Positions 1 through 27,132 of a DNA stretch of 64,000 bases are shown one piece after another. Origin of the DNA: Paenibacillus sp. FSL K6-3182. GTDB lineage: Bacteria > Bacillota > Bacilli > Paenibacillales > Paenibacillaceae. The stretch lies in NCBI RefSeq assembly GCF_037976325.1, contig NZ_CP150265.1:2599501-2663500 (forward strand), read 5' to 3'. Below the pieces are notes generated by a model. The model searched no databases. It saw only the letters and a program-made list of their open reading frames with translations, and had not been told where the DNA came from. The position numbers were made by a program, and so were the translations under genes. The first letter of the stretch is position 1, and each line of letters opens with the position of its first letter.

Positions 1-1728
1 TCTTTTTCGGCGAGGCTTCAGGTGACGGGTGATGGATTATCTATTCCGGTCACCCACAAGGCATCGCCATTATTTGATCTTGTTTATGTATTATCTGATC
101 GCAATGAGCGGGGAATTACAACGCTTAACGGGATGCAGGATAACTATGAAATCATTTGCAATATTCTGCTGTTGAAAAACAGGAGGAGAAAGGAAACACA
201 GGTACAATCGAGTGACGTAAGCTACAACAACTCTTCTTTCAAAAACAGTCTTATGACGGAATCCGGAAGACAGGGGTTCGTATCAGCGGGGTTGTCCAAG
301 GTGAAACGACCGAATCATTCGATTGCGTTAACCGTCCTTTATCATTTCTTTAAACAAATAAAAGAGCGGCTGGAAATTGCTGACCTGCAGGGCAGCAAGG
401 AAAAGCTGTCCTTCTTTGGGCTGGATTCAGCTGCGATGGACACTAGAATGCTCGATCTCGTACCAAGCGAGGACAGTCTCATCGATATGTCTGGTCTTCT
501 GACGAACAACATTCGTTATGATCAACTGCGGCGCATGTCGCTGCGCGAGGCAGAGGAAGCCTTGTTCGGGGATGGCTGCACCATCTTCTTCCGTAAGCAT
601 TTCACTAGTTCAGCTGAGGTGAACTTAGGTTATGTGAAGGCTTCAGATGAGCTGCGAGCCACTGTAAACCGTAATATGAAAGATCAGCCATTGTATAGCT
701 TTTTCCAGGTCGCCAAGTGGACAGACGAGAAAAACGAGACAGACAGCGTCATGACAGCTGTTCGCGCTCGAATGCGCGATTTGGTCAGAGAGATTGATAT
801 CGCTCAGGATGAGCTGGGTCGAATCCGCGAACAACGTGTGGATGATTTGAAATTTCAGCGTCTTCCATTTATGGACAAGCAAAATGTTCGATCCTTTATA
901 CGCGCTTTTTTTGATGCGGTGTACCGGCTGGAATGGCAGCTTTTACGACTTGAGACTGAGCTTGCGTTGTACCGAAAATTTGCTGCTGAGCTGGAGCGTC
1001 TTCATGAGAAATACCGAATTCGCGTAGAACAGATGGCGCTGCTAGAGGAAACGCTAAATGCGGCGGCTCAGCACAGTATCCGTTCAGCGGATGATTATAT
1101 CGGGCAGAACATCTTCGAGTATTATGAGCGAGTCACTGCAGCTGTCATGAAGGATATTGAAGAGAAACGCGGCGCATCCATATTTTTTGAGGAACCATTT
1201 CTCGGCAATATGACCGAGCTTCTGCAGCAGGGAGATTCCGCGTTTCTGGAGCGATTAATGGAGATTTGCCGAAAGTACATTTTGACAGCAGAGCCTTTTG
1301 CACAGACTTTCGAGGAGGAGCTGCTGCTGCGTGCCAATGTATCCGTTGCATACAGCAATCGTAAAGCTTTATCGAGGGACGAGCTGTTTCACCGATTATA
1401 CCGGACACTGGAAGAGCATGCGGTCGTTCATATTCGTCTTCTCGACTATACACATGAGCATCGTTATGAGGAAAAGTATCTGTTCGGAGATCGCGAGAGT
1501 GAATTTATCCGATATGCACTTGGCGTTGACGAATCTTCACGCATTTACAAGCTGGGGTGTGTACATGAGAAGCGCAGCAGCGGTGTAGAAAAGTTGAATA
1601 TTATGGGCGGCTTTCATTTAGAAGATTTGATGTATTATCGAAACGGCAAAGTGTATTATGAGACCTATTTGCAAAATGGGTACGAATTTCACACGCTTGA
1701 TCCTGCTCTGCTGCCTGATCTTCGCTGA
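1..1728 (+). CDS. Probable tubulin-like protein, C-terminal part (5' end outside window)
   Basis: The frame is open from base 1, so the gene begins before the window; the GTG at 22 is only the first possible start visible. About 570 residues are seen. An early segment, PLFDLVYVLSDRNERG, resembles the stretch in bacterial tubulin-like proteins (Tubulin_2 type) that follows the nucleotide-binding region, but the glycine-rich GTP-binding loop itself is not in the window. The middle (about residues 240-340) is charged and heptad-like, suggesting coiled coil. The end is a compact domain with a CVHEKRSSGVEKLNIMGG patch. It lies 56 bp before the vWA gene and leads the GTPase cluster. The tubulin assignment is from memory of the family; a generic coiled-coil scaffold is the alternative. 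Confidence 0.5.
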   Translation, partial: SFSARLQVTGDGLSIPVTHKASPLFDLVYVLSDRNERGITTLNGMQDNYEIICNILLLKNRRRKETQVQSSDVSYNNSSFKNSLMTESGRQGFVSAGLSKVKRPNHSIALTVLYHFFKQIKERLEIADLQGSKEKLSFFGLDSAAMDTRMLDLVPSEDSLIDMSGLLTNNIRYDQLRRMSLREAEEALFGDGCTIFFRKHFTSSAEVNLGYVKASDELRATVNRNMKDQPLYSFFQVAKWTDEKNETDSVMTAVRARMRDLVREIDIAQDELGRIREQRVDDLKFQRLPFMDKQNVRSFIRAFFDAVYRLEWQLLRLETELALYRKFAAELERLHEKYRIRVEQMALLEETLNAAAQHSIRSADDYIGQNIFEYYERVTAAVMKDIEEKRGASIFFEEPFLGNMTELLQQGDSAFLERLMEICRKYILTAEPFAQTFEEELLLRANVSVAYSNRKALSRDELFHRLYRTLEEHAVVHIRLLDYTHEHRYEEKYLFGDRESEFIRYALGVDESSRIYKLGCVHEKRSSGVEKLNIMGGFHLEDLMYYRNGKVYYETYLQNGYEFHTLDPALLPDLR

Positions 1729-1784
1729 CCGATATACATCAACAATGCTGCGGTCCACTAGCAAGTAGAAAGGGTGCTGTTATT

Positions 1785-3071
1785 ATGCAACGAAAAATAA
1801 ATGGGCTTCTCTTACTGTTCAGCTTGATAGGAGGCGCAGTAGGATTCGTCATCGGGGAAATCATACTGGGGGCGCTGTCAGAAATCTGGCCGCGCTTTGC
1901 CGTCGTTGGGCTATACTTTGGCGTTCTTGCTTTATGCATTGGACTGGCCTGCCTGATTGCTGAAATGATTTCTCCTCGTTTGAACGGAACTTCGTGGCGT
2001 CAGCGTTATACCGGATTATCGTGGCAGCTGCTCGTACCAGCAACGTTAGTTCTGCTGTTTGCAGTCGGCGGATTGCTGCAATTTATTTACGGCGCACATT
2101 TTGGCGGTGCGAAGCAGGTAAAGGATATTGTGCTTGTTATCGATAATTCAGGAAGCATGCTGGAGACCGATCCTGATAACGAGCGTTATTCGGCTGCGAA
2201 GCAATTGATTCAAAACATGGAAAGCGATAAGCGTGTGGCGGTGGTTGCATTTCACAATACCGCACAATTGATTCAGCCGTTTGTTAAAGTAAGCACACAG
2301 GAAGAGAAAGATAAAGTAAATGCCGCAATCGACTCACTTGAGCCGACGGATGGCGGTACAAACTTTAGTCTAGCGCTTGGCGAAGCAATGAAGACGATTA
2401 AGGATAAGGAAAAGGCTGGGCGCGGGACAATGGTTATTCTGTTGTCGGACGGTTTCAGCGAATCCGATATCAATAAGCAAATTGCACAGTTCCAAGAGCA
2501 GCAAATTGTCATTAATACGGTAGGCCTTAGCGTTGCAGATTCCAAAGGCTCTGCCTTGCTGCAGCAAATAGCTGATTCCACCAATGGAAGCTATTACGAT
2601 GTGTCGGAAGCGAACGGGCTGGCGCTCGTATTCCAAAATATTTACAATACAATCGATAATCGGACGCTTCTAACTGAAAGAACGGGATCGCTTGCGGACA
2701 GCACGCTGTATACACTGCTTCGTATTTTATCCTTAGCCATTATCGGTGCAGCTTTAGGAATGTCGCTAGGATTGTTTTTCGACAATCGGTTTTTGGCATT
2801 AAGCTTTGGGGCGGGCGGTATTGTAGGCGGTTTGCTGGCTGGCTTCATTTTGGACTCCGGTTTGTCCGGGGATATGCTCTCTGACGGTTTATCACGTCTA
2901 TTCGCTGTTCTTGTACTGGCAGCCATTATTAGCATTTTCACACTTGTTGTTCCGATAAGGGATAATAACAGTACAAACCGTTATGATGGCGGCAGAAAAA
3001 ACAGCAATAGAGATCAGTCCACAAAGGCGTTAGGCGAACGGACGAAGGACAGCCGCAGTCATGGATTTTAA
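1785..3071 (+). CDS. Membrane-anchored von Willebrand factor A (vWA) domain protein
   Basis: 428 residues. Three hydrophobic segments lie at about residues 7-30, 38-60 and 78-102. A vWA domain follows, with the metal-binding MIDAS motif DNSGS at 120-124, a GGTN threonine loop and an LSDGFS aspartate, so all usual MIDAS elements are present. Three more hydrophobic segments follow near residues 305-395 and the tail is charged. vWA domains bind protein partners through a divalent metal. Here the domain sits between two membrane blocks, so its side of the membrane depends on topology. It belongs to the same run as the GTPase gene, with a 23 bp gap to the next gene. It probably acts as a membrane-bound partner or sensor for the GTPase/GAP1 pair; that role is inference. 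Confidence 0.8.
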   Translation: MQRKINGLLLLFSLIGGAVGFVIGEIILGALSEIWPRFAVVGLYFGVLALCIGLACLIAEMISPRLNGTSWRQRYTGLSWQLLVPATLVLLFAVGGLLQFIYGAHFGGAKQVKDIVLVIDNSGSMLETDPDNERYSAAKQLIQNMESDKRVAVVAFHNTAQLIQPFVKVSTQEEKDKVNAAIDSLEPTDGGTNFSLALGEAMKTIKDKEKAGRGTMVILLSDGFSESDINKQIAQFQEQQIVINTVGLSVADSKGSALLQQIADSTNGSYYDVSEANGLALVFQNIYNTIDNRTLLTERTGSLADSTLYTLLRILSLAIIGAALGMSLGLFFDNRFLALSFGAGGIVGGLLAGFILDSGLSGDMLSDGLSRLFAVLVLAAIISIFTLVVPIRDNNSTNRYDGGRKNSNRDQSTKALGERTKDSRSHGF

Positions 3072-3094
3072 ACGATGCGGGAGGCGGATATAAA

Positions 3095-3730
3095 ATGCGG
3101 TTTATCGATGCAGAGGATGGTTCTCCGATTATCAGCGGTTTAACTCGCGTGTTGGAGGAGGACCGCTGCACGCTGCGCTGGATTTGGCCGGGCGGTATAG
3201 AAGCGGTTTACATTGGGAAAACACCGGCTGAGCAGGCGGCGGAAAGCCCTGTGGATATAGGAACTGTCAAGTTATACACGAAGGCAGAATATAAAGCGAA
3301 TAATGGCTATCATAGCCGATTAGAGGGCATCGGACGTTTGGTCTTTACGGTATATGCCGCACTGGAAGGGAGTGGCGGTCCGCAGCTCATCCTTCAGCCC
3401 AATCATGAGAACAGCATAGAAATAAGTGCTGGCCGAGCTAAGATTCATTATTCGATTACAAATAAGAGCGGTTTGTTCAGAAAGTTCAAAACGATTCAAA
3501 TTCAAGTTTCAACAGAGGTACCGATTGGGAAAGACGTACTTTGTTATGTGAAAAAGCAGGGCAGCTATCCCGCGAATAAAGAAGACGGCATGCTGTATCC
3601 GTTCGTTGCGCCTTTCGCAGCTGGAAAAACCGTTTTGCCTGCCATTGAGGTTGGCAAACAGGATTTTATACGATTGTTTTTCACTGATGGCCGAACGTCT
3701 GGACAGATGTACGAATTGATTTCAGTATAA
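3095..3730 (+). CDS. Small protein of GTPase cluster, probable beta-sandwich adaptor
   Basis: 211 residues with no signal peptide or membrane segment. It is not matched to a family I can name with confidence. The sequence alternates short hydrophobic strands and turns, and the opening RCTLRWIWPGGIEAVYIGK resembles a fibronectin III-like strand pair with an aromatic W-W core. A second similar half may start near residue 110. The invariant position between the vWA gene (23 bp gap) and the GTPase gene (14 bp gap) suggests an accessory or adaptor of the same complex. Homologous GTPase systems in actinomycetes, as I recall them, also carry beta-sandwich proteins starting with a tryptophan-rich strand. 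Structure prediction would test this. Confidence 0.55.
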   Translation: MRFIDAEDGSPIISGLTRVLEEDRCTLRWIWPGGIEAVYIGKTPAEQAAESPVDIGTVKLYTKAEYKANNGYHSRLEGIGRLVFTVYAALEGSGGPQLILQPNHENSIEISAGRAKIHYSITNKSGLFRKFKTIQIQVSTEVPIGKDVLCYVKKQGSYPANKEDGMLYPFVAPFAAGKTVLPAIEVGKQDFIRLFFTDGRTSGQMYELISV

Positions 3731-3744
3731 AGGAGGAAGATCGC

Positions 3745-5004
3745 ATGGGTATTTTCGATCTTTTCAAGAAAAAGCCGGAAGCAAAGCAAAGGCCTTTGTT
3801 TTATGATATTGTTTGCCCCTATTGTTTTAGTAAATTTACACCGGATGAGGTTGTATTCCGCGCTTCACATTCCCGTGAGGATGATGAGGATTATGCGCTT
3901 GGAGAAGATGATGAGCTGAATAAGTATCGTGAGCGTTTTGGCCTTGATTCTGTACATGATATGGAAGCGGTTCTCTATCCAAACGACGTGCCTGAAGAGC
4001 ATCGGATTTACTCAGACCATGTATTAATTGGAATTAATGACCGCTATGGCGAGCTGACACGCAGAAGACTTTGTCCAAAATGCCACAACGAAATTCCAGT
4101 AACGGCAGGCAAGGTGCCGAGCAATATTATTTCTATCATTGGCGCTTCACAAGTAGGCAAGTCGGTGTATATGACCGCGTTGATACATACGCTGCAGAAC
4201 ACGACAGCGGATCATTTTAATGCAGCCTGCATGCCGCTTAACGCTGAAATTAGCCGGAAATTCCGAACCTATTACGAGGAGCCGCTGTTTGAGCGCGGCG
4301 ATCTGCTTGCGTCTACCCAAAAGGAAAAGATGCAGGAGCCTTTTATTTTTCAATTTGTTTTTAAAGATGAATCGAAGCCACCGCTCACTCTCGTATTTTT
4401 TGATGTCGCTGGCGAGGGCATGGTAGAGCAGGATTATCTTGGTTTGCATGGTCAGCATATCAAAAATTCAGCAGGCATTTTGCTGATGGTAGATCCGCTG
4501 CAAATTCGCTCCATTCGCGAGAAAATTAGAATGAATCTGGGCGATAAGCCCGGTGAATGGGTTTCCCAATACGACGAGCCGCGCGACGTTGTTCTGACGA
4601 TGTTTGGCGACTTTATTGCTTATCAGGAAAACAACAAAACGGATATTCCGACCGCTGTCGTTTTAACGAAGAGCGATATGCTTCATTCCCTAAAGGATGA
4701 AGATGGTGAATATATTAAATCGAACAGCAATATTTTCAACAACATGGTGCATCGCAATTATTTTAACCTGACTGAGTTTGAGAATATTGATGGAGAAATC
4801 CGCCGTTTCATCGAGAAGGTTGATCGTCCCTTTAAAGGTACGATGGATGTTTATTTTAAGGATACGGCTTATTATGCGGTTTCCGCACTCGGCAGCAATC
4901 CCGTCGATCAGAAGCTGCAAACCGTCGTCAGTCCCATTCGGGTAGACGAGCCCTTCATTTGGCTGCTTTATAAGCTGAACTTCATTGAGGGGAGAAGAGA
5001 ATAG
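3745..5004 (+). CDS. Zinc-ribbon P-loop GTPase (double-GTPase/TRAFAC-like)
   Basis: 419 residues. Two CxxC pairs (C24/C27 and C110/C113) can form a split zinc ribbon before the nucleotide-binding domain. The P-loop GASQVGKS is at 133-140, the switch II region DVAGEG at 220-225, and TKSD at 308-311 matches the NKxD guanine-specificity motif, so GTP is the likely substrate. There is no membrane segment. A good ribosome-binding site (aaggagga) precedes the ATG. The gene overlaps the next one by a single base, implying translational coupling with the GAP1-like partner. The family resembles the double-GTPase (DO-GTPase) proteins predicted to act in NTP-dependent conflict or signalling systems. GTPase is well supported; the biological role is not known. 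Confidence 0.8.
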   Translation: MGIFDLFKKKPEAKQRPLFYDIVCPYCFSKFTPDEVVFRASHSREDDEDYALGEDDELNKYRERFGLDSVHDMEAVLYPNDVPEEHRIYSDHVLIGINDRYGELTRRRLCPKCHNEIPVTAGKVPSNIISIIGASQVGKSVYMTALIHTLQNTTADHFNAACMPLNAEISRKFRTYYEEPLFERGDLLASTQKEKMQEPFIFQFVFKDESKPPLTLVFFDVAGEGMVEQDYLGLHGQHIKNSAGILLMVDPLQIRSIREKIRMNLGDKPGEWVSQYDEPRDVVLTMFGDFIAYQENNKTDIPTAVVLTKSDMLHSLKDEDGEYIKSNSNIFNNMVHRNYFNLTEFENIDGEIRRFIEKVDRPFKGTMDVYFKDTAYYAVSALGSNPVDQKLQTVVSPIRVDEPFIWLLYKLNFIEGRRE

Positions 5005-7937
5005 TGCGCGATTCTACGCCCAGCAGGATGATTCAGCAGCAGATGTATGCACGGGAAAGACGCGGCATTTTCAGATCCACGGAAGGTTATGACACGATCG
5101 CCAAATCAAGCGGTTTGGAAGCATCATTTGTCAAAAAAGTGCTTCATCCGTTTTGTGTTTATGATGCCCCGACTGAGCTGGCTACCCGCGGTGAGAAGGA
5201 CGGTTCCGCGTATCCAGAGACGATGCACCTACTTCATTTGGATAATGGCGATGTGCTGCTTGGCAGAAGCGTTTATCAGGCAGCCGACTTCACAGGTCTG
5301 CGCAGCGCGTTTTTTACGCATAACTTTATTATTCCAAGCGGTCATAGCAGCAAGCCTGCAAGTGATTATATGAACTGGCTGCAAGCCGCTTTCGCAGATC
5401 AATATAATATTGACAGCGGTACGGAAATAGCAGAGCTGCTAGAGCTTCCGATTCAGAGTGCAGCAGCGATTAAGCCGTCTGCTCGTTCGATCCTTTCTTT
5501 GCTGAACATTTCAGAAAAATCGTTTAAACAGCTGCTCTTTGCGGTAATGGCAGCAGTCGGAGGTAAGAAAAAGATCTATGTTTCGCTTGATGTACCAATC
5601 AAACAGCTGCCGGACAAGGCAAAACAGCTGCTTGGTGTGCTATATGCGAGTTTACCCTACGCCTTCCGCAAGCAGCTTGGTTTCATCACCTATGCGAAAG
5701 AACCGGTAAGCCGCAAATCGGTTCATCTTACGTTCGTAGAGCAAGGAAGCCTCCGCCATGGGGATCGCAGCATCGAGAAGGATTTTACGTTTGATTTCGG
5801 CAACGACCGAATGATGAATGTTGATCTGGACGGTATAGATCAGCCATTTTTGGATTTTGCATGGGATAACTTGGATCGTCCTGACCGTACGGATAGCTTC
5901 TTTCAATTCGCTGAGCTGATGCTGGCAGACATGGGGGAGGAGCGCGAACTCGCAGCAGCCAGTTATCATGAGCTATGCGTCGTTTACCAAATCGAGGAAG
6001 GCAACGAAAAGTTATATGAATCGCATAAAAGCGCGGTAATGCGGAGCTTGATGGATTATTTGCAGCCATCCGGCGCATTGGATGCCAAGATGCGCTTGAA
6101 TGATTTATTTCTTTCTCGATTTGATTATGAGTTTGACCGCGCTAGGCAAGGAGTAGTGCCGGAAACCTTCATTGTAGATGTGTTTACACAATACTATCAA
6201 ATTGAAGGTAAACATATCGAAAATAAGCTGGTTTCCTTTTTCATTTTGGCATTGCTAAATGCAAGAAAACAGAGTGAGCAAGACGCGGCGGCTTCCTTCT
6301 ATGCGGCAGTTGAAAGCAATCCTGCTTTTAGCATAGCTTTTTTCACAAGAGTCTTAGTAGATGCGAAGCTAAGTGCAAACTTATTTATTCCATTCCTTGA
6401 GCAAAAGCTTAAAGCAGCTGCAGGAGCCAAAAGTGTTCTGCAGCTCATTGAGCAGTGGGGCAATGCTCATCCTAAGCTGTACGGTGATGAAGACTTTTTT
6501 GTGCTGGTCCGCCAGCAGCTCATCGAGAAGCTGAAACGGGAGCGCCACTCGCTGCCAGCGACGAGCAAAGCGCTTGAGCAATTGCGCAGCTTAGCAAGTG
6601 AAGGCAAGTTTGGCGTGCGAAAACAGCTGCCATCTCATGATGCGGTAGAGTTTTATACGGAGCTCGAGCTTGCAGCTTATCGAGCAATGTTAATTGAACT
6701 TGATATGGAAAGATTGACGAAGGATCAGCTCATGCTGGGCGAGTTTCTCAAATCGAAGGAGCAGCTGAAAAAATGGAATGGACAGCTGAACGATCCGAGG
6801 CAGAAATCAGCAGCGCTTGAGCTGCAGGCGCTTTACGAATGCTTCGCATTCCCGGAGCCAACGGTAGATTTATTCGATAATCTATCCCCAGCAGAGATCG
6901 ACCGGGTGCAGCTCGTTGGTCGCCGATTGCTTGCCAATCAGCTGGAGTTAGCCGAATTTCCGCGTCTCGTGCTATTGTTTCTTCGCAGTTCGGATATGGA
7001 ATCAGTGGATTATGCCACGCTCCTCAACTATTTGCAGCAAAACGCGTCTCAAAAAGATACGGTATATCTATTTTTCCGATGGGCAGAAAAACATCCTAGT
7101 TTCATGCGCTCAAGAGGTTTTGTTCCTGCCTATGTAACTGCAGTAGTCAGCTATTTCACAAAACATGACCGGGATGCATTTAAGAAACGAGCCAATTGGA
7201 AGCAGCATTTTGACAAAGCGGGTCCTATTCTTAAAGGTGTATATAAACAGGCGGAGCGCGAGCTATCCTCACCGCTGACTAAATTTTTTCGCAGGAATCG
7301 TAAATCGACGTTTATAACATCGTTATCGGCTATAGGTATTGTACTAATCGTAGCCGGCATTATGTTTGCCTTCGGCGGCAAGGATGATGTGAAGCCTGGT
7401 GGTGCTGTTTTGCCTGAAACGACTCCTGAACCGAGCATCAGCCAGCCGGATACAATCGTATACGTGGAGCAAAATGCTGCATCAGAGGGGAAGAAGGCTG
7501 CGACCACCCTCGTCTTCGCATTTAAGGAAGCAGCAGCTTGCGGACTGTTTAAGCCTAGCTCATTGACGGTAGAAACGCCGGATGCAGAAGCTGTTGCGTA
7601 CACCACACTTGAAGTTGAATCTGATTGCAAAGCGGATACAGGGAATAGCAGCACGGAAGGGAATCAAGTTGAAAGCTCATCACAGCCGACGGAAACAACG
7701 GATTCGACTGCCAAAGAATCCGATAAGCCGACGCCAACGCCGGCTGAAACTGATTCACTGCCGACAGCTACCGATTCTCAGACGGAGCAACCGAGCAATA
7801 CTGCAATAAATGAAGCAGACTATACGAACCGGGTTGTAGTTAACCTCGGTAAGCAGGTTGATATACCTGAGAAAAGCATTATCACGGTCGGTGAATCGAA
7901 GTATGAGATTTCCGTGCTGCGTGTTGCTGCGCCATAA
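5004..7937 (+). CDS. GTPase-associated protein 1 (GAP1)-like, membrane-anchored
   Basis: 977 residues. The GTG start overlaps the GTPase stop by one base and has gaggggagaa upstream; ATG 5028 is an alternative. The N-terminus (MIQQQMYARERRGIF, then a LTTR-less mixed domain with SAFFTHNFIIP) resembles the GAP1-N2 domain of proteins encoded beside double GTPases. A long alpha-helical middle follows to about residue 750. A single hydrophobic segment lies at about 768-790, followed by a Pro/Thr/Ser/Glu-rich linker and a short C-terminal beta-rich module, which would be extracellular if the large N-terminal part is cytoplasmic. It would regulate or read out the GTPase at the membrane. Family match is recalled, not searched; the anchored C-terminal extension looks unusual. 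Confidence 0.65.
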   Translation: MRDSTPSRMIQQQMYARERRGIFRSTEGYDTIAKSSGLEASFVKKVLHPFCVYDAPTELATRGEKDGSAYPETMHLLHLDNGDVLLGRSVYQAADFTGLRSAFFTHNFIIPSGHSSKPASDYMNWLQAAFADQYNIDSGTEIAELLELPIQSAAAIKPSARSILSLLNISEKSFKQLLFAVMAAVGGKKKIYVSLDVPIKQLPDKAKQLLGVLYASLPYAFRKQLGFITYAKEPVSRKSVHLTFVEQGSLRHGDRSIEKDFTFDFGNDRMMNVDLDGIDQPFLDFAWDNLDRPDRTDSFFQFAELMLADMGEERELAAASYHELCVVYQIEEGNEKLYESHKSAVMRSLMDYLQPSGALDAKMRLNDLFLSRFDYEFDRARQGVVPETFIVDVFTQYYQIEGKHIENKLVSFFILALLNARKQSEQDAAASFYAAVESNPAFSIAFFTRVLVDAKLSANLFIPFLEQKLKAAAGAKSVLQLIEQWGNAHPKLYGDEDFFVLVRQQLIEKLKRERHSLPATSKALEQLRSLASEGKFGVRKQLPSHDAVEFYTELELAAYRAMLIELDMERLTKDQLMLGEFLKSKEQLKKWNGQLNDPRQKSAALELQALYECFAFPEPTVDLFDNLSPAEIDRVQLVGRRLLANQLELAEFPRLVLLFLRSSDMESVDYATLLNYLQQNASQKDTVYLFFRWAEKHPSFMRSRGFVPAYVTAVVSYFTKHDRDAFKKRANWKQHFDKAGPILKGVYKQAERELSSPLTKFFRRNRKSTFITSLSAIGIVLIVAGIMFAFGGKDDVKPGGAVLPETTPEPSISQPDTIVYVEQNAASEGKKAATTLVFAFKEAAACGLFKPSSLTVETPDAEAVAYTTLEVESDCKADTGNSSTEGNQVESSSQPTETTDSTAKESDKPTPTPAETDSLPTATDSQTEQPSNTAINEADYTNRVVVNLGKQVDIPEKSIITVGESKYEISVLRVAAP

Positions 7938-7964
7938 CCAAAGCAACGTATTTATAAGAATAGG

Positions 7965-8018
7965 AAGGGTTGTTCCGTTAGTAGTTTTACTACTGTTGGA
8001 ACGACCCTTTTTTTCTTT
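7965..8018 (+). terminator. Rho-independent terminator of the GTPase cluster
   Basis: An inverted repeat with arms aagggttgttcc and ggaacgaccctt is followed by a run of T residues. It lies 28 bases after the GAP1-like stop codon and closes the five-gene unit. Confidence 0.9.
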
Positions 8019-10847: not shown

Positions 10848-11111
10848 GTGGCAATCATACTTGATGAAGAGTATTACAAGCTGCTGCATGATTTGCAGGC
10901 GGTAGATTTTGTACTCGTGGAGCTGAATTTATATTTGGATACTCATCCTACAGATTCAAATGCCATACATCAATACAATCAGTTCGCACAGCTAAGATTG
11001 CCTATTGTACAGCAGTATGAATCGAAGTACGGGCCTTTAAAACATTTTGGCCAAAGCTTCTCCACGAACCCTTGGTCATGGAATGATACGCCATGGCCAT
11101 GGCAGGTATAA
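10848..11111 (+). CDS. cotJB: Spore coat protein CotJB
   Basis: 87 residues, GTG start with aaggtgatt just upstream inside the end of cotJA. The family signature is clear: YYKLLHDLQAVDFVLVELNLYLDTHP near the start, and a tryptophan-rich end NPWSWNDTPWPWQV. CotJB is a small coat protein whose assembly depends on CotJC in Bacillus. It lies between cotJA and cotJC in the standard order. The length is typical. Confidence 0.92.
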   Translation: MAIILDEEYYKLLHDLQAVDFVLVELNLYLDTHPTDSNAIHQYNQFAQLRLPIVQQYESKYGPLKHFGQSFSTNPWSWNDTPWPWQV

Positions 11112-11154
11112 ATAGTGGATAGAGCCAGTAGGAAAACTAGAGGAGGCACCGTAC

Positions 11155-11724
11155 ATGTGGGTTTATGAGAAAAAACTGCAATATCCCGTTCGCGTAAGCA
11201 AATGCGATCCAATGATGGCTAAGTTTCTAATGGAGCAATATGGCGGTGCTGACGGTGAGCTTGCAGCAGCGCTTCGGTATTTAAACCAGAGGTACACGAT
11301 TCCGGATAAAGTCATTGGATTGCTAACAGATATAGGCACTGAAGAATTTGCCCACTTGGAAATGATTGCTACAATGATATATAAATTGACAAAAGATGCT
11401 ACGCCTGAGCAGTTAAAGGCTGCTGGACTTGGTGCTCATTATGTGGCTCATGACAGCGCCTTGTTTTATGAGAATGCAGGCGGCGTACCCTTTACGGCTA
11501 CCTATATTCAAGCGAAAGGCGATCCAATTGCGGATCTATATGAGGACATAGCAGCGGAGGAGAAGGCTAGGGCGACGTATCAGTGGCTGATTGACTTGAC
11601 GGATGACGTGGATTTGCAGGATAGTTTGAAGTTTCTGCGGGAGCGGGAGATTATACATTCACTGCGGTTTCGTGAAGCGGTGGAGATCCTTAAGGAAAAG
11701 CGGGATGAGAAGATATTTTATTAG
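11155..11724 (+). CDS. cotJC: Spore coat protein CotJC (manganese catalase family)
   Basis: 189 residues. It belongs to the di-manganese catalase-like family: helical, with glutamates and histidines of a ferritin-like metal site, for example EEFAHLEMIATMI and EEKARATYQWL. A ribosome-binding site agaggagg precedes the ATG. It is the last gene of the cotJ operon and is followed by a strong terminator. CotJC is a spore coat or inner-coat component with possible peroxide-scavenging activity. A nearly identical 3' two thirds of this gene recurs at 25282-25662 as a truncated copy. Confidence 0.93.
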   Translation: MWVYEKKLQYPVRVSKCDPMMAKFLMEQYGGADGELAAALRYLNQRYTIPDKVIGLLTDIGTEEFAHLEMIATMIYKLTKDATPEQLKAAGLGAHYVAHDSALFYENAGGVPFTATYIQAKGDPIADLYEDIAAEEKARATYQWLIDLTDDVDLQDSLKFLREREIIHSLRFREAVEILKEKRDEKIFY

Positions 11725-25866: not shown

Positions 25867-27132
25867 GTGGTGTACACAGAAGAGTTGGAAGCAAACCGAC
25901 TTAGATGGAATGAAGTAAACCGAAGGACGTACGAGGTCGTTCATCCCTTTTGGGCGTATCAACGTTTTGTTCTTAACGAGAGAACATCAGATACCGGCAT
26001 TAGAATGGGATTTGGACTTATGCAGGCTGGAATGAAATGTGTGGGATATGCGGAATGTGATACAAAATGCGAAACATGCCTAACATTCACGCAGCATGAA
26101 GCTCATCCTAAAAAAAGTATTACACAATCTGCCTAACGTGCGGATCTCCCAAAAAACAACCTACTCCCGAGAGTTTTAAAATCTTACATGATCCAAACGA
26201 AAGGATGTGGAGTGCTTATGTTGGTTGCGGGATTTCCTTGCCAGGCTTTCTCCATTGCTGGAAAGCGTGAAGGATTTAACGACGCTATTAGAGGGACAGT
26301 ATTCTTTGAGATCATCAGGTTCGCATCTATTCTCAAACCTGAATTTATATGCCTTGAAAACGTCATAGGACTCCTCAGTCATGACAAAGGGAGAACGTTC
26401 GAGACTATCATCGGAACGTTGGATGAGTTGGGGTACGTGGGGGAGTGGTATGTGCTTAACAGCTCGGCCTATGTGCCACAAAACAGAGAACGAGTCTTCA
26501 GTGTCGCAAGTCTTAGAGGATCAAGTGGACGAAAAATATTTCCTTTCAGAGGAGAAAACAACAAGCCTGCTAAAGACTCTAAAACAATAGCTTCTAGGGT
26601 CATGATCGCTGGAAATGTAAATCCAAGCAGAAGAGGTATGAATGGCCAAGTAATTGCAGCAAACGGACTAGCGCCGACACTTACAACGAATAAGGGTGAA
26701 GGTAACAAAATTTTAGTTAATGTATCACAAAAGACAGGTGTCAACGAAGCAGGAGAAGCAGCTTGTTTAGATGCAAGTTATTTCAAAGGATTAGGAGCCA
26801 ATCAAGCTCGAACAGGGGTCATTGAACCCATGGCTGTATTAACACCTGACCGCGAAGAGAAAAGGCAGAACGGACGTCGATTTAAGGAGCCAGGGGAACC
26901 ATCTTTTACGCTAACAGCACAGGACAAACATGGAATCTATGATGGTTATCGTATTCGCAAACTGACACCTCTTGAATGTTTTCGACTGCAGTCTTTTCCG
27001 GACGATTGGTTTTATACACTCAAAGGATATGGGATAAGCGATTCCCAATTATATAAAATGGCAGGCAATGCTGTAACGAGCCGAGTTGCTTATGAAATCG
27101 GTAAACGATTGATGGATTCCTTCAGATTTTAA
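25867..27132 (+). pseudogene. DNA (cytosine-5-)-methyltransferase, frameshifted
   Basis: The first frame (25867-26136) contains TGIRMGFGLMQAGMKCVGYA, which corresponds to motif I (SAM binding) and the start of motif II. It ends at a stop. A second frame (26188-27132) carries the catalytic motif IV AGFPCQAFSIAGKREGF, ENVIGLLSHDKG (motif VI), QNRERVF (motif VIII), a target-recognition region, and the late motifs LTPLECFRLQSFPD and YKMAGNAVTSRVAYEIG. About 50 bases and a frame separate the halves, so SAM binding and catalysis are not on one polypeptide. No restriction gene is near; it resembles a phage-type orphan Dcm enzyme that died. Confidence 0.8.

Follow-up and report, generated by a model that had tools for sequence, protein, structure and literature searches.

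The window analyzed here is the whole 64,000-nucleotide stretch at positions 2599501-2663500 of the 7.56-Mb chromosome of Paenibacillus sp. FSL K6-3182, and it opens inside an operon on the plus strand. Five ORFs of this operon lie in the window: the 3' part of Tub2 (1..1728), vWA2 (1785..3071), a gene for a 211-aa protein (3095..3730), a DO-GTPase gene (3745..5004), and a GAP1-N2 gene (5004..7937). They are spaced by gaps of 56, 23, and 14 bases and then a one-base overlap, and the operon is closed on the same strand by an intrinsic terminator at 7958..8015 (RNA fold of -32.5 kcal/mol, z of -8.5, then a T-run), a hairpin that a simple consensus scan for terminators did not list. The same-strand arrangement, the spacing, and the single terminator after the last gene had been described in the initial annotation, and the ORF coordinates and the fold bear them out. 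Its description of a five-gene system led by a tubulin-like protein does not hold. Reading the chromosome upstream revealed that the window cuts a larger operon, which begins 5.9 kb before the window with vWA1 (L003:13613-15388, 591 aa) and continues with Tub1 (L003:15413-18802, 1129 aa) and with Tub2, which straddles the window edge and whose whole gene (L004:1802-4228, 808 aa) begins 699 bases upstream. The order on the plus strand is vWA1-Tub1-Tub2-vWA2-FN3-DO-GTPase-GAP1. Hence, vWA1 leads, the first gene of the window seems to be a second, degenerate tubulin, and the tubulin with a GTP loop lies outside. On the strand opposite to the operon, the gene ZnTM (L003:12354-13307, 317 aa) adjoins vWA1, and a 51-codon ORF, smTM (L003:13304-13459, minus strand), lies between the two, also upstream of the window. 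The full cassette has TmX (in some genomes), ZnTM, and smTM on one strand and the seven-gene operon on the other; TmX is absent from the window's genome.

The two tubulin-related proteins differ in their nucleotide-binding motifs. Tub1 is a member of Pfam Tubulin_2 (PF13809; E=8.5e-76), and the GTP-loop patterns GxGGTG and SGGTGSG are found in Tub1 at 61/61 loci and in Tub2 at 0/61. Tub2 reaches Tubulin_2 at E=3.8e-4, below the cut-off and only over profile positions 220-354 (the C-terminal part). Its AF2 model (pLDDT 81.5, with a helix at 525-595) matches CetZ2 (E=3.3e-4) and TubZ (E=7.7e-4) with a TM of 0.39 each by target length, and a Tub2-Tub1 profile comparison gave P=0.0022 with a probability of only 13, which is weak alone. 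We read Tub2 as a second, degenerate tubulin that would have kept a tubulin-like fold and lost the GTP loops. The tubulin-like call for the window's first gene stands as regards the fold and needs correction as regards the sequence, which falls below the Tubulin_2 cut-off and has no GTP loop. In public databases Tub2 is often called "transcription initiation factor TFIID"; this looks like a misannotation, and a search for that name with Paenibacillus gave no relevant literature by title.

The GTPase and GAP1 were predicted well by the initial annotation, which had called a zinc-ribbon GTPase with G1, G3, and G4 motifs and a GAP1-like protein with its own membrane anchor. Two Pfam families match the GTPase over the cut-off (PF19993, PF19975), DO-GTPase2 at E=9.1e-7 and DO-GTPase1 at E=9.6e-7. 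Over 61 loci, the G1, G3, G4, and G5 patterns are present in 61, 60, 55, and 60, and one split C..C...C..C motif in all 61. GAP1, which stands for GTPase-associated protein 1 in passages of Kaur 2020 (PMC7159879), has the domains GAP1-N2 (PF20013; E=1.5e-43) and GAP1-M (PF20014; E=1.9e-26), a further soluble part, one hydrophobic segment (767-794), and a polar C-terminal tail. All 61 loci have such a segment past residue 600, with a median of 229 residues beyond it, whose polar composition was judged by eye.

The remaining operon products are two vWA proteins and the 211-aa protein. In vWA2, the vWA domain (Pfam VWA, E=3.2e-21) is flanked by two blocks of three hydrophobic segments, DxSxS is found in 61/61 loci, and D120, S122, S124, T192, and D222 are invariant, which agrees with the earlier call of a complete MIDAS between two membrane blocks. 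Hydropathy and charge, read by eye, suggest that this domain is extracellular. vWA1 (VWA, E=3.5e-15) has hydrophobic segments at 7-29 and 448-478 and no Pfam YtkA match at E<=5. The 211-aa protein has no Pfam match, and among 67 relatives the only matches were at E>=0.0088. Its AF2 model is a beta protein (pLDDT 90.1) whose best PDB match is NCAM FN3 1-2 (E=6.9e-5, whole-chain TM of 0.30), in line with the beta-sandwich proposed for the third gene and pointing to a probable tandem FN3. It is often called "beta-mannanase" in public databases, a name that also looks like a misannotation. The structure predictions used alignments of 67 and 58 hand-picked rows. Together, the hydrophobic segments of vWA2 and GAP1 agree with the membrane location that had been predicted for the system.

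The genes of the cassette form one conserved system, as had been proposed. Their order is identical in 60/60 loci from 10 genera, hand-picked for spread among the matches listed rather than drawn at random and including one (L116) of the same species as the window; this indicates that the genes are linked more than by chance. Tub1 was found in 42/299 genomes of the class; 26 of these belong to the same family, 15 to family f22, and 1 to f11. From the latter two families we fetched 9 loci (of 16 matches), and all 9 have the eight main genes in the same order, with vWA2 and ZnTM in shorter or split ORFs that look broken in one of them (L193). Within the family, GAP1-N2 occurs in 253/394 genomes, in 251 of them as a single copy; the other two (G068, G133) have several weaker matches each, perhaps from a broken gene. 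ZnTM was found in 252/394 genomes: of the 254 genomes with the cassette, among them one of Paenibacillus polymyxa (L112), 251 have both markers, 2 have GAP1-N2 only (G065, G339), 1 has ZnTM only (G246), and 140 have neither. The three genomes with a single marker are 85%, 84%, and 71% complete, respectively. The cassette is thus absent from 140/394 genomes of the family.

In the divergent arm, ZnTM, which has no Pfam family over the cut-off, is adjacent to the operon in 60/60 loci, with two hydrophobic segments and a C..C...C..C motif in 60/61. The start of ZnTM is overlapped by 4 bases by smTM, of about 50 aa and with one hydrophobic stretch. A smTM-like ORF is present in 63/69 loci; among those of the same family it is found in 55/61, whereas 40 shuffles gave 3.6 on average and never more than 9. 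Mismatches in smTM number 800, 649, and 1713 at the three codon positions, and a protein search gave 10 matches, "hypothetical protein" where named. TmX (about 580-615 aa where complete, with one N-terminal hydrophobic stretch by eye) accompanies 30/60 loci, a count in which 2 of the 30 loci without it (L144, L145) had no flank and belong to genomes that do have TmX. All 9 loci from families f22 and f11 contain it, split in two in the case of L192. Of the 134/394 genomes with a TmX match, 133 have the cassette; the match in the remaining one (G024) is weak and partial (E=5e-4). A bacterial SH3_3 domain was identified in 5/12 scanned members, with E=5.9e-11 in L191. A candidate ECF-sigma promoter between the two arms, GAAAC-N-CGT in 43/61 intergenic regions versus 1.3 in shuffles, was dropped because in the window's genome the pattern overlies the coding start of smTM, a conserved ORF, on the other strand. 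The sporulation, sigma-A, and other promoters tried on the 61 intergenic regions gave small counts, at most 6/61.

Most of the features listed for this kind of machinery in earlier work were tested and found here, and we conclude that the cassette belongs to it. Main-text passages of Kaur 2020 (PMC7159879) describe a firmicute layout with two tubulins, two vWA genes, and GAP1-N2 with a DO-GTPase, for which a conflict role is predicted. Parts of Makarova & Koonin 2010 (PMC2875224) describe FtsZl1/vWA/GTPase operons with a predicted role in membrane remodeling. As in the former passages, we found a DO-GTPase gene, here over the Pfam cut-off; a GAP1 with N2 and M domains and a highly polar C-terminal extension; two tubulin-domain genes, with a C-terminal coiled coil there and the helix at 525-595 of the Tub2 model here; two vWA genes, one of them multi-TM, whose vWA domain we place outside by eye; and an FN3-type protein, here by fold only and with a low whole-chain TM. 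The GTPase described there usually has two N-terminal zinc ribbons, and here at least one split motif is present in 61/61 loci; the YtkA domain reported there on one vWA protein gave no Pfam match at E<=5 in vWA1. ZnTM, smTM, and TmX are unmentioned in these main-text passages, which also do not state the GTP-loop loss of Tub2, the rate split, or the cross-genus placements. In the operons of Makarova & Koonin 2010, too, a GTP-loop Tubulin_2 protein is encoded alongside vWA and GTPase genes, and Brevibacillus brevis is among the aligned sequences. The relevant parts of that paper name no GAP1, Tub2, or divergent arm, and their unnamed associated families A1-A2 and B1-B9 could include GAP1, Tub2, or parts of the arm. 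Relative to these parts of the literature, the present analysis appears to contribute the divergent arm, the GTP-loop loss of Tub2, the gradient of rates, and a small number of placements across genera. The system had been presented as not characterized: no experimental study of it was recognized in the open-licence literature searched, but the relevant parts of these two papers show that its kind had already been printed. In a 2023 FtsZ/tubulin paper, the part consulted keeps Tubulin_2 apart, as a group that is FtsZ-like but divergent.

The components evolve at very different rates. Across 60 loci, the median identity to the window's genome is 86% for the GTPase, 83% for Tub1, 64% for vWA1, 55% for vWA2 and FN3, 53% for Tub2, 43% for ZnTM, and 41% for GAP1; FtsZ, which is also present in 60/60 of these genomes, has identities of 84-100% with a median of 87%. 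(In a separate 80-locus comparison, ORFs running off an edge were dropped, leaving vWA1 from 52/80, and the loci were fetched by GTPase similarity, which biases the GTPase identity upward.) In a set of 20 genomes, 19 of the 60 plus the window's, we compared the cassette with the 3 of 8 reference ORFs that were present in all. The median uncorrected distances are 0.133 for FtsZ, 0.160 for GTPase, 0.182 for Tub1, 0.226 for FtsA, 0.387 for vWA1, 0.461 for vWA2, 0.465 for FN3, 0.484 for Tub2, 0.535 for a DivIB-like protein, 0.577 for ZnTM, and 0.620 for GAP1. Hence, GTPase and Tub1 lie between FtsZ and FtsA, and the DivIB-like protein is the nearer reference for GAP1, ZnTM, Tub2, FN3, and vWA2. 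This gradient resembles that of the divisome, slow in the cytoskeletal core and fast in the membrane parts, although it is not simply one of core versus membrane, since Tub2 and FN3 are fast and have no predicted membrane segment. The likeness to the FtsZ-FtsA-DivIB divisome, where a slow cytoskeletal core is joined to a fast bitopic membrane protein, is a works-like comparison only: unlike the divisome, the cassette is missing from 140/394 relatives and is related to it only through the tubulin superfamily.

How is such a cassette inherited? Any two of the eight gene trees have 33-48 of 58 splits in common, and the cassette therefore largely moves together. A tree of the 61 cassettes recovers genera g3, g13, and g17 as clades but not g1, g5, g9, and g10, with 12 changes of genus label versus a minimum of 9. 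AU tests, on two sets of 32 and 29 of the 61 loci and 3 of the 8 genes, rejected the clades of g9 (6e-11) and g1 (1e-26) and did not reject that of g5 (0.14); L120 was flagged by the program for its long branch and odd composition. When L120, L122, and L133 were removed, g1 formed a clade with one g16 locus (support 100), g1 alone was rejected (4e-5), as was g9 (2e-49), and g9 without L163 was only just rejected (0.047). By these trees, the firm discordant placements are few: L120 and L122 with L133, L135 inside g1, and L163 inside g10. The cassettes of L120 and L122, both of g1, carry TmX and group with L133 of genus g2, which is possibly the result of a transfer. The contamination assigned to the genomes of L135 and L133 is 8% and 7%, and could still be a source of their placements. 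Distances of the cassette and of ftsZ/ftsA/divIB have a Pearson correlation of 0.56 (reached by 0/2000 permutations) and a Spearman correlation of 0.29, and the two trees have 2/17 splits in common, with only three housekeeping genes in the reference. Strictly vertical inheritance as a core operon was dropped, given the rejection of the g1 and g9 clades and the few cross-genus placements. The trees rather suggest that the cassette mostly follows the genera, with a few cross-genus placements. Patchy presence and tree discordance would also suit an accessory or a defense cassette.

The best reading of these data, on which we are evenly balanced, is an accessory envelope-spanning tubulin machine that serves the remodeling or the integrity of the envelope. 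Beneath the membrane, a GTP-dependent assembly would be formed or capped by Tub1, with intact GTP loops, and Tub2, which lost them. Its switch would be the zinc-ribbon DO-GTPase, acting as a pair with the membrane-anchored GAP1. The MIDAS domains of vWA1 and vWA2 would face the exterior. In genomes that have TmX, this protein would contact the wall, in certain lineages via a bacterial SH3 domain. Such a machine would link tubulins assembled in the cytoplasm with the wall or surface. We infer from the components the polymerization, the Tub1-Tub2 pairing, the GTPase-GAP1 switching, the topology, the wall binding, and the physiological role. Several results count for this reading: the same gene order in 60/60 and 9/9 loci, the split of GTP loops between Tub1 and Tub2, SH3_3 in 5/12 TmX members, divisome-like rates, the presence of a single copy in 251/253 genomes, Pfam-named neighbors that are mostly glycosidases, a glycosyltransferase, and spore-coat genes, the lack of a PADLOC match for nine of ten genes tested around the cassette, and, for the eight main components, the lack of a Pfam effector domain (also lacking in 12 TmX members) and of a PADLOC match better than E 0.011. 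The role predicted in membrane-related stress by the part consulted of a 2024 PSP paper, which reports that some pspFABC operons include a DO-GTPase gene, also fits an envelope role. The absence from 140/394 genomes, the cross-genus placements, the 2/17 common splits, the rank correlation of 0.29, and the fast divergence of Tub2, FN3, and ZnTM count against this reading.

These last points are also where an anti-phage conflict system gains ground. In such a system, FN3 and vWA proteins would sense invasion, the DO-GTPase and GAP1 would set a threshold, and the tubulins would contain or kill. The family and the theme match the prediction in the passages of Kaur 2020, the 140/394 genomes without the cassette make its presence patchy, some cross-genus placements involve the whole cassette, and GAP1, Tub2, and FN3 diverge fast. 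Still, Tub1, which would be the effector, diverges more slowly than nearly all other parts and its gene context is constant in 60/60 loci, the cassette is kept in one copy per genome in 251/253, Pfam searches of the eight main components and of 12 TmX members found no effector domain, and PADLOC gave no strong match in the eight main components (best E of 0.011) and none for nine of ten genes tested around the cassette. We regard this explanation as less probable than the envelope reading, yet as a serious contender. A defense-island context was rejected on these ten genes: nine gave no PADLOC match, and the tenth, with many, is a DNA methyltransferase 18 kb downstream. This ORF, at window positions 26188-27132, strongly matches DNA cytosine methyltransferase models (PADLOC oMTase, 3e-72). 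Carriage by phages or plasmids was also considered and set aside: the GTPase, the one component searched against phages, gave no match, and Tub1, the one searched against plasmids, gave one weak match at 27% identity; both results count for the envelope reading. The two predictions for this machinery in the parts of the literature cited, membrane remodeling and conflict, disagree. The fuller parts list for Paenibacillus and relatives, with divergent-strand parts, a GTP-loop and a degenerate tubulin, and a rate gradient, makes both directly testable. A more elaborate form of the envelope machine seems unlikely to us on present data, namely a ten-gene transmembrane cytoskeleton in which an active/inactive tubulin pair would build a GTP-driven assembly that membrane parts tie physically to outside MIDAS vWA domains and a peptidoglycan-binding SH3 protein, tuned by the putative membrane microprotein smTM and the zinc-ribbon membrane protein ZnTM, and occasionally passed between genera as a unit. 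It would work like the link from integrins to the cytoskeleton.

The neighbors of the cassette raise another question: could it serve to assemble or export material for the S-layer, the spore surface, or polysaccharide, for example, on a tubulin scaffold? The vWA, SH3, and FN3-like parts would suit such a surface device, as would the CotJB, Mn-catalase, and glycosyltransferase genes among the neighbors in the window's genome. However, such neighbors are not common to the loci: in flanks of about 3 kb per locus, the widest cluster besides TmX is found in 9/60 loci, on mixed sides. No secretion ATPase or channel was recognized in the cassette, and 140/394 genomes of the family do without it. A surface device is improbable in our view, and an envelope-remodeling or integrity machine remains the preferred reading. 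As for the surroundings themselves, CotJB and a Mn-catalase-family protein, presumably CotJC-like, are encoded at window positions 10848-11724, about 3 kb downstream of the operon. Upstream, three similar glycosyltransferase-like genes lie within L003:5051-9339, the one tested matching Glyco_trans_1_2 and DUF3880, and the ORFs of that region include apparent polysaccharide deacetylases (by eye).
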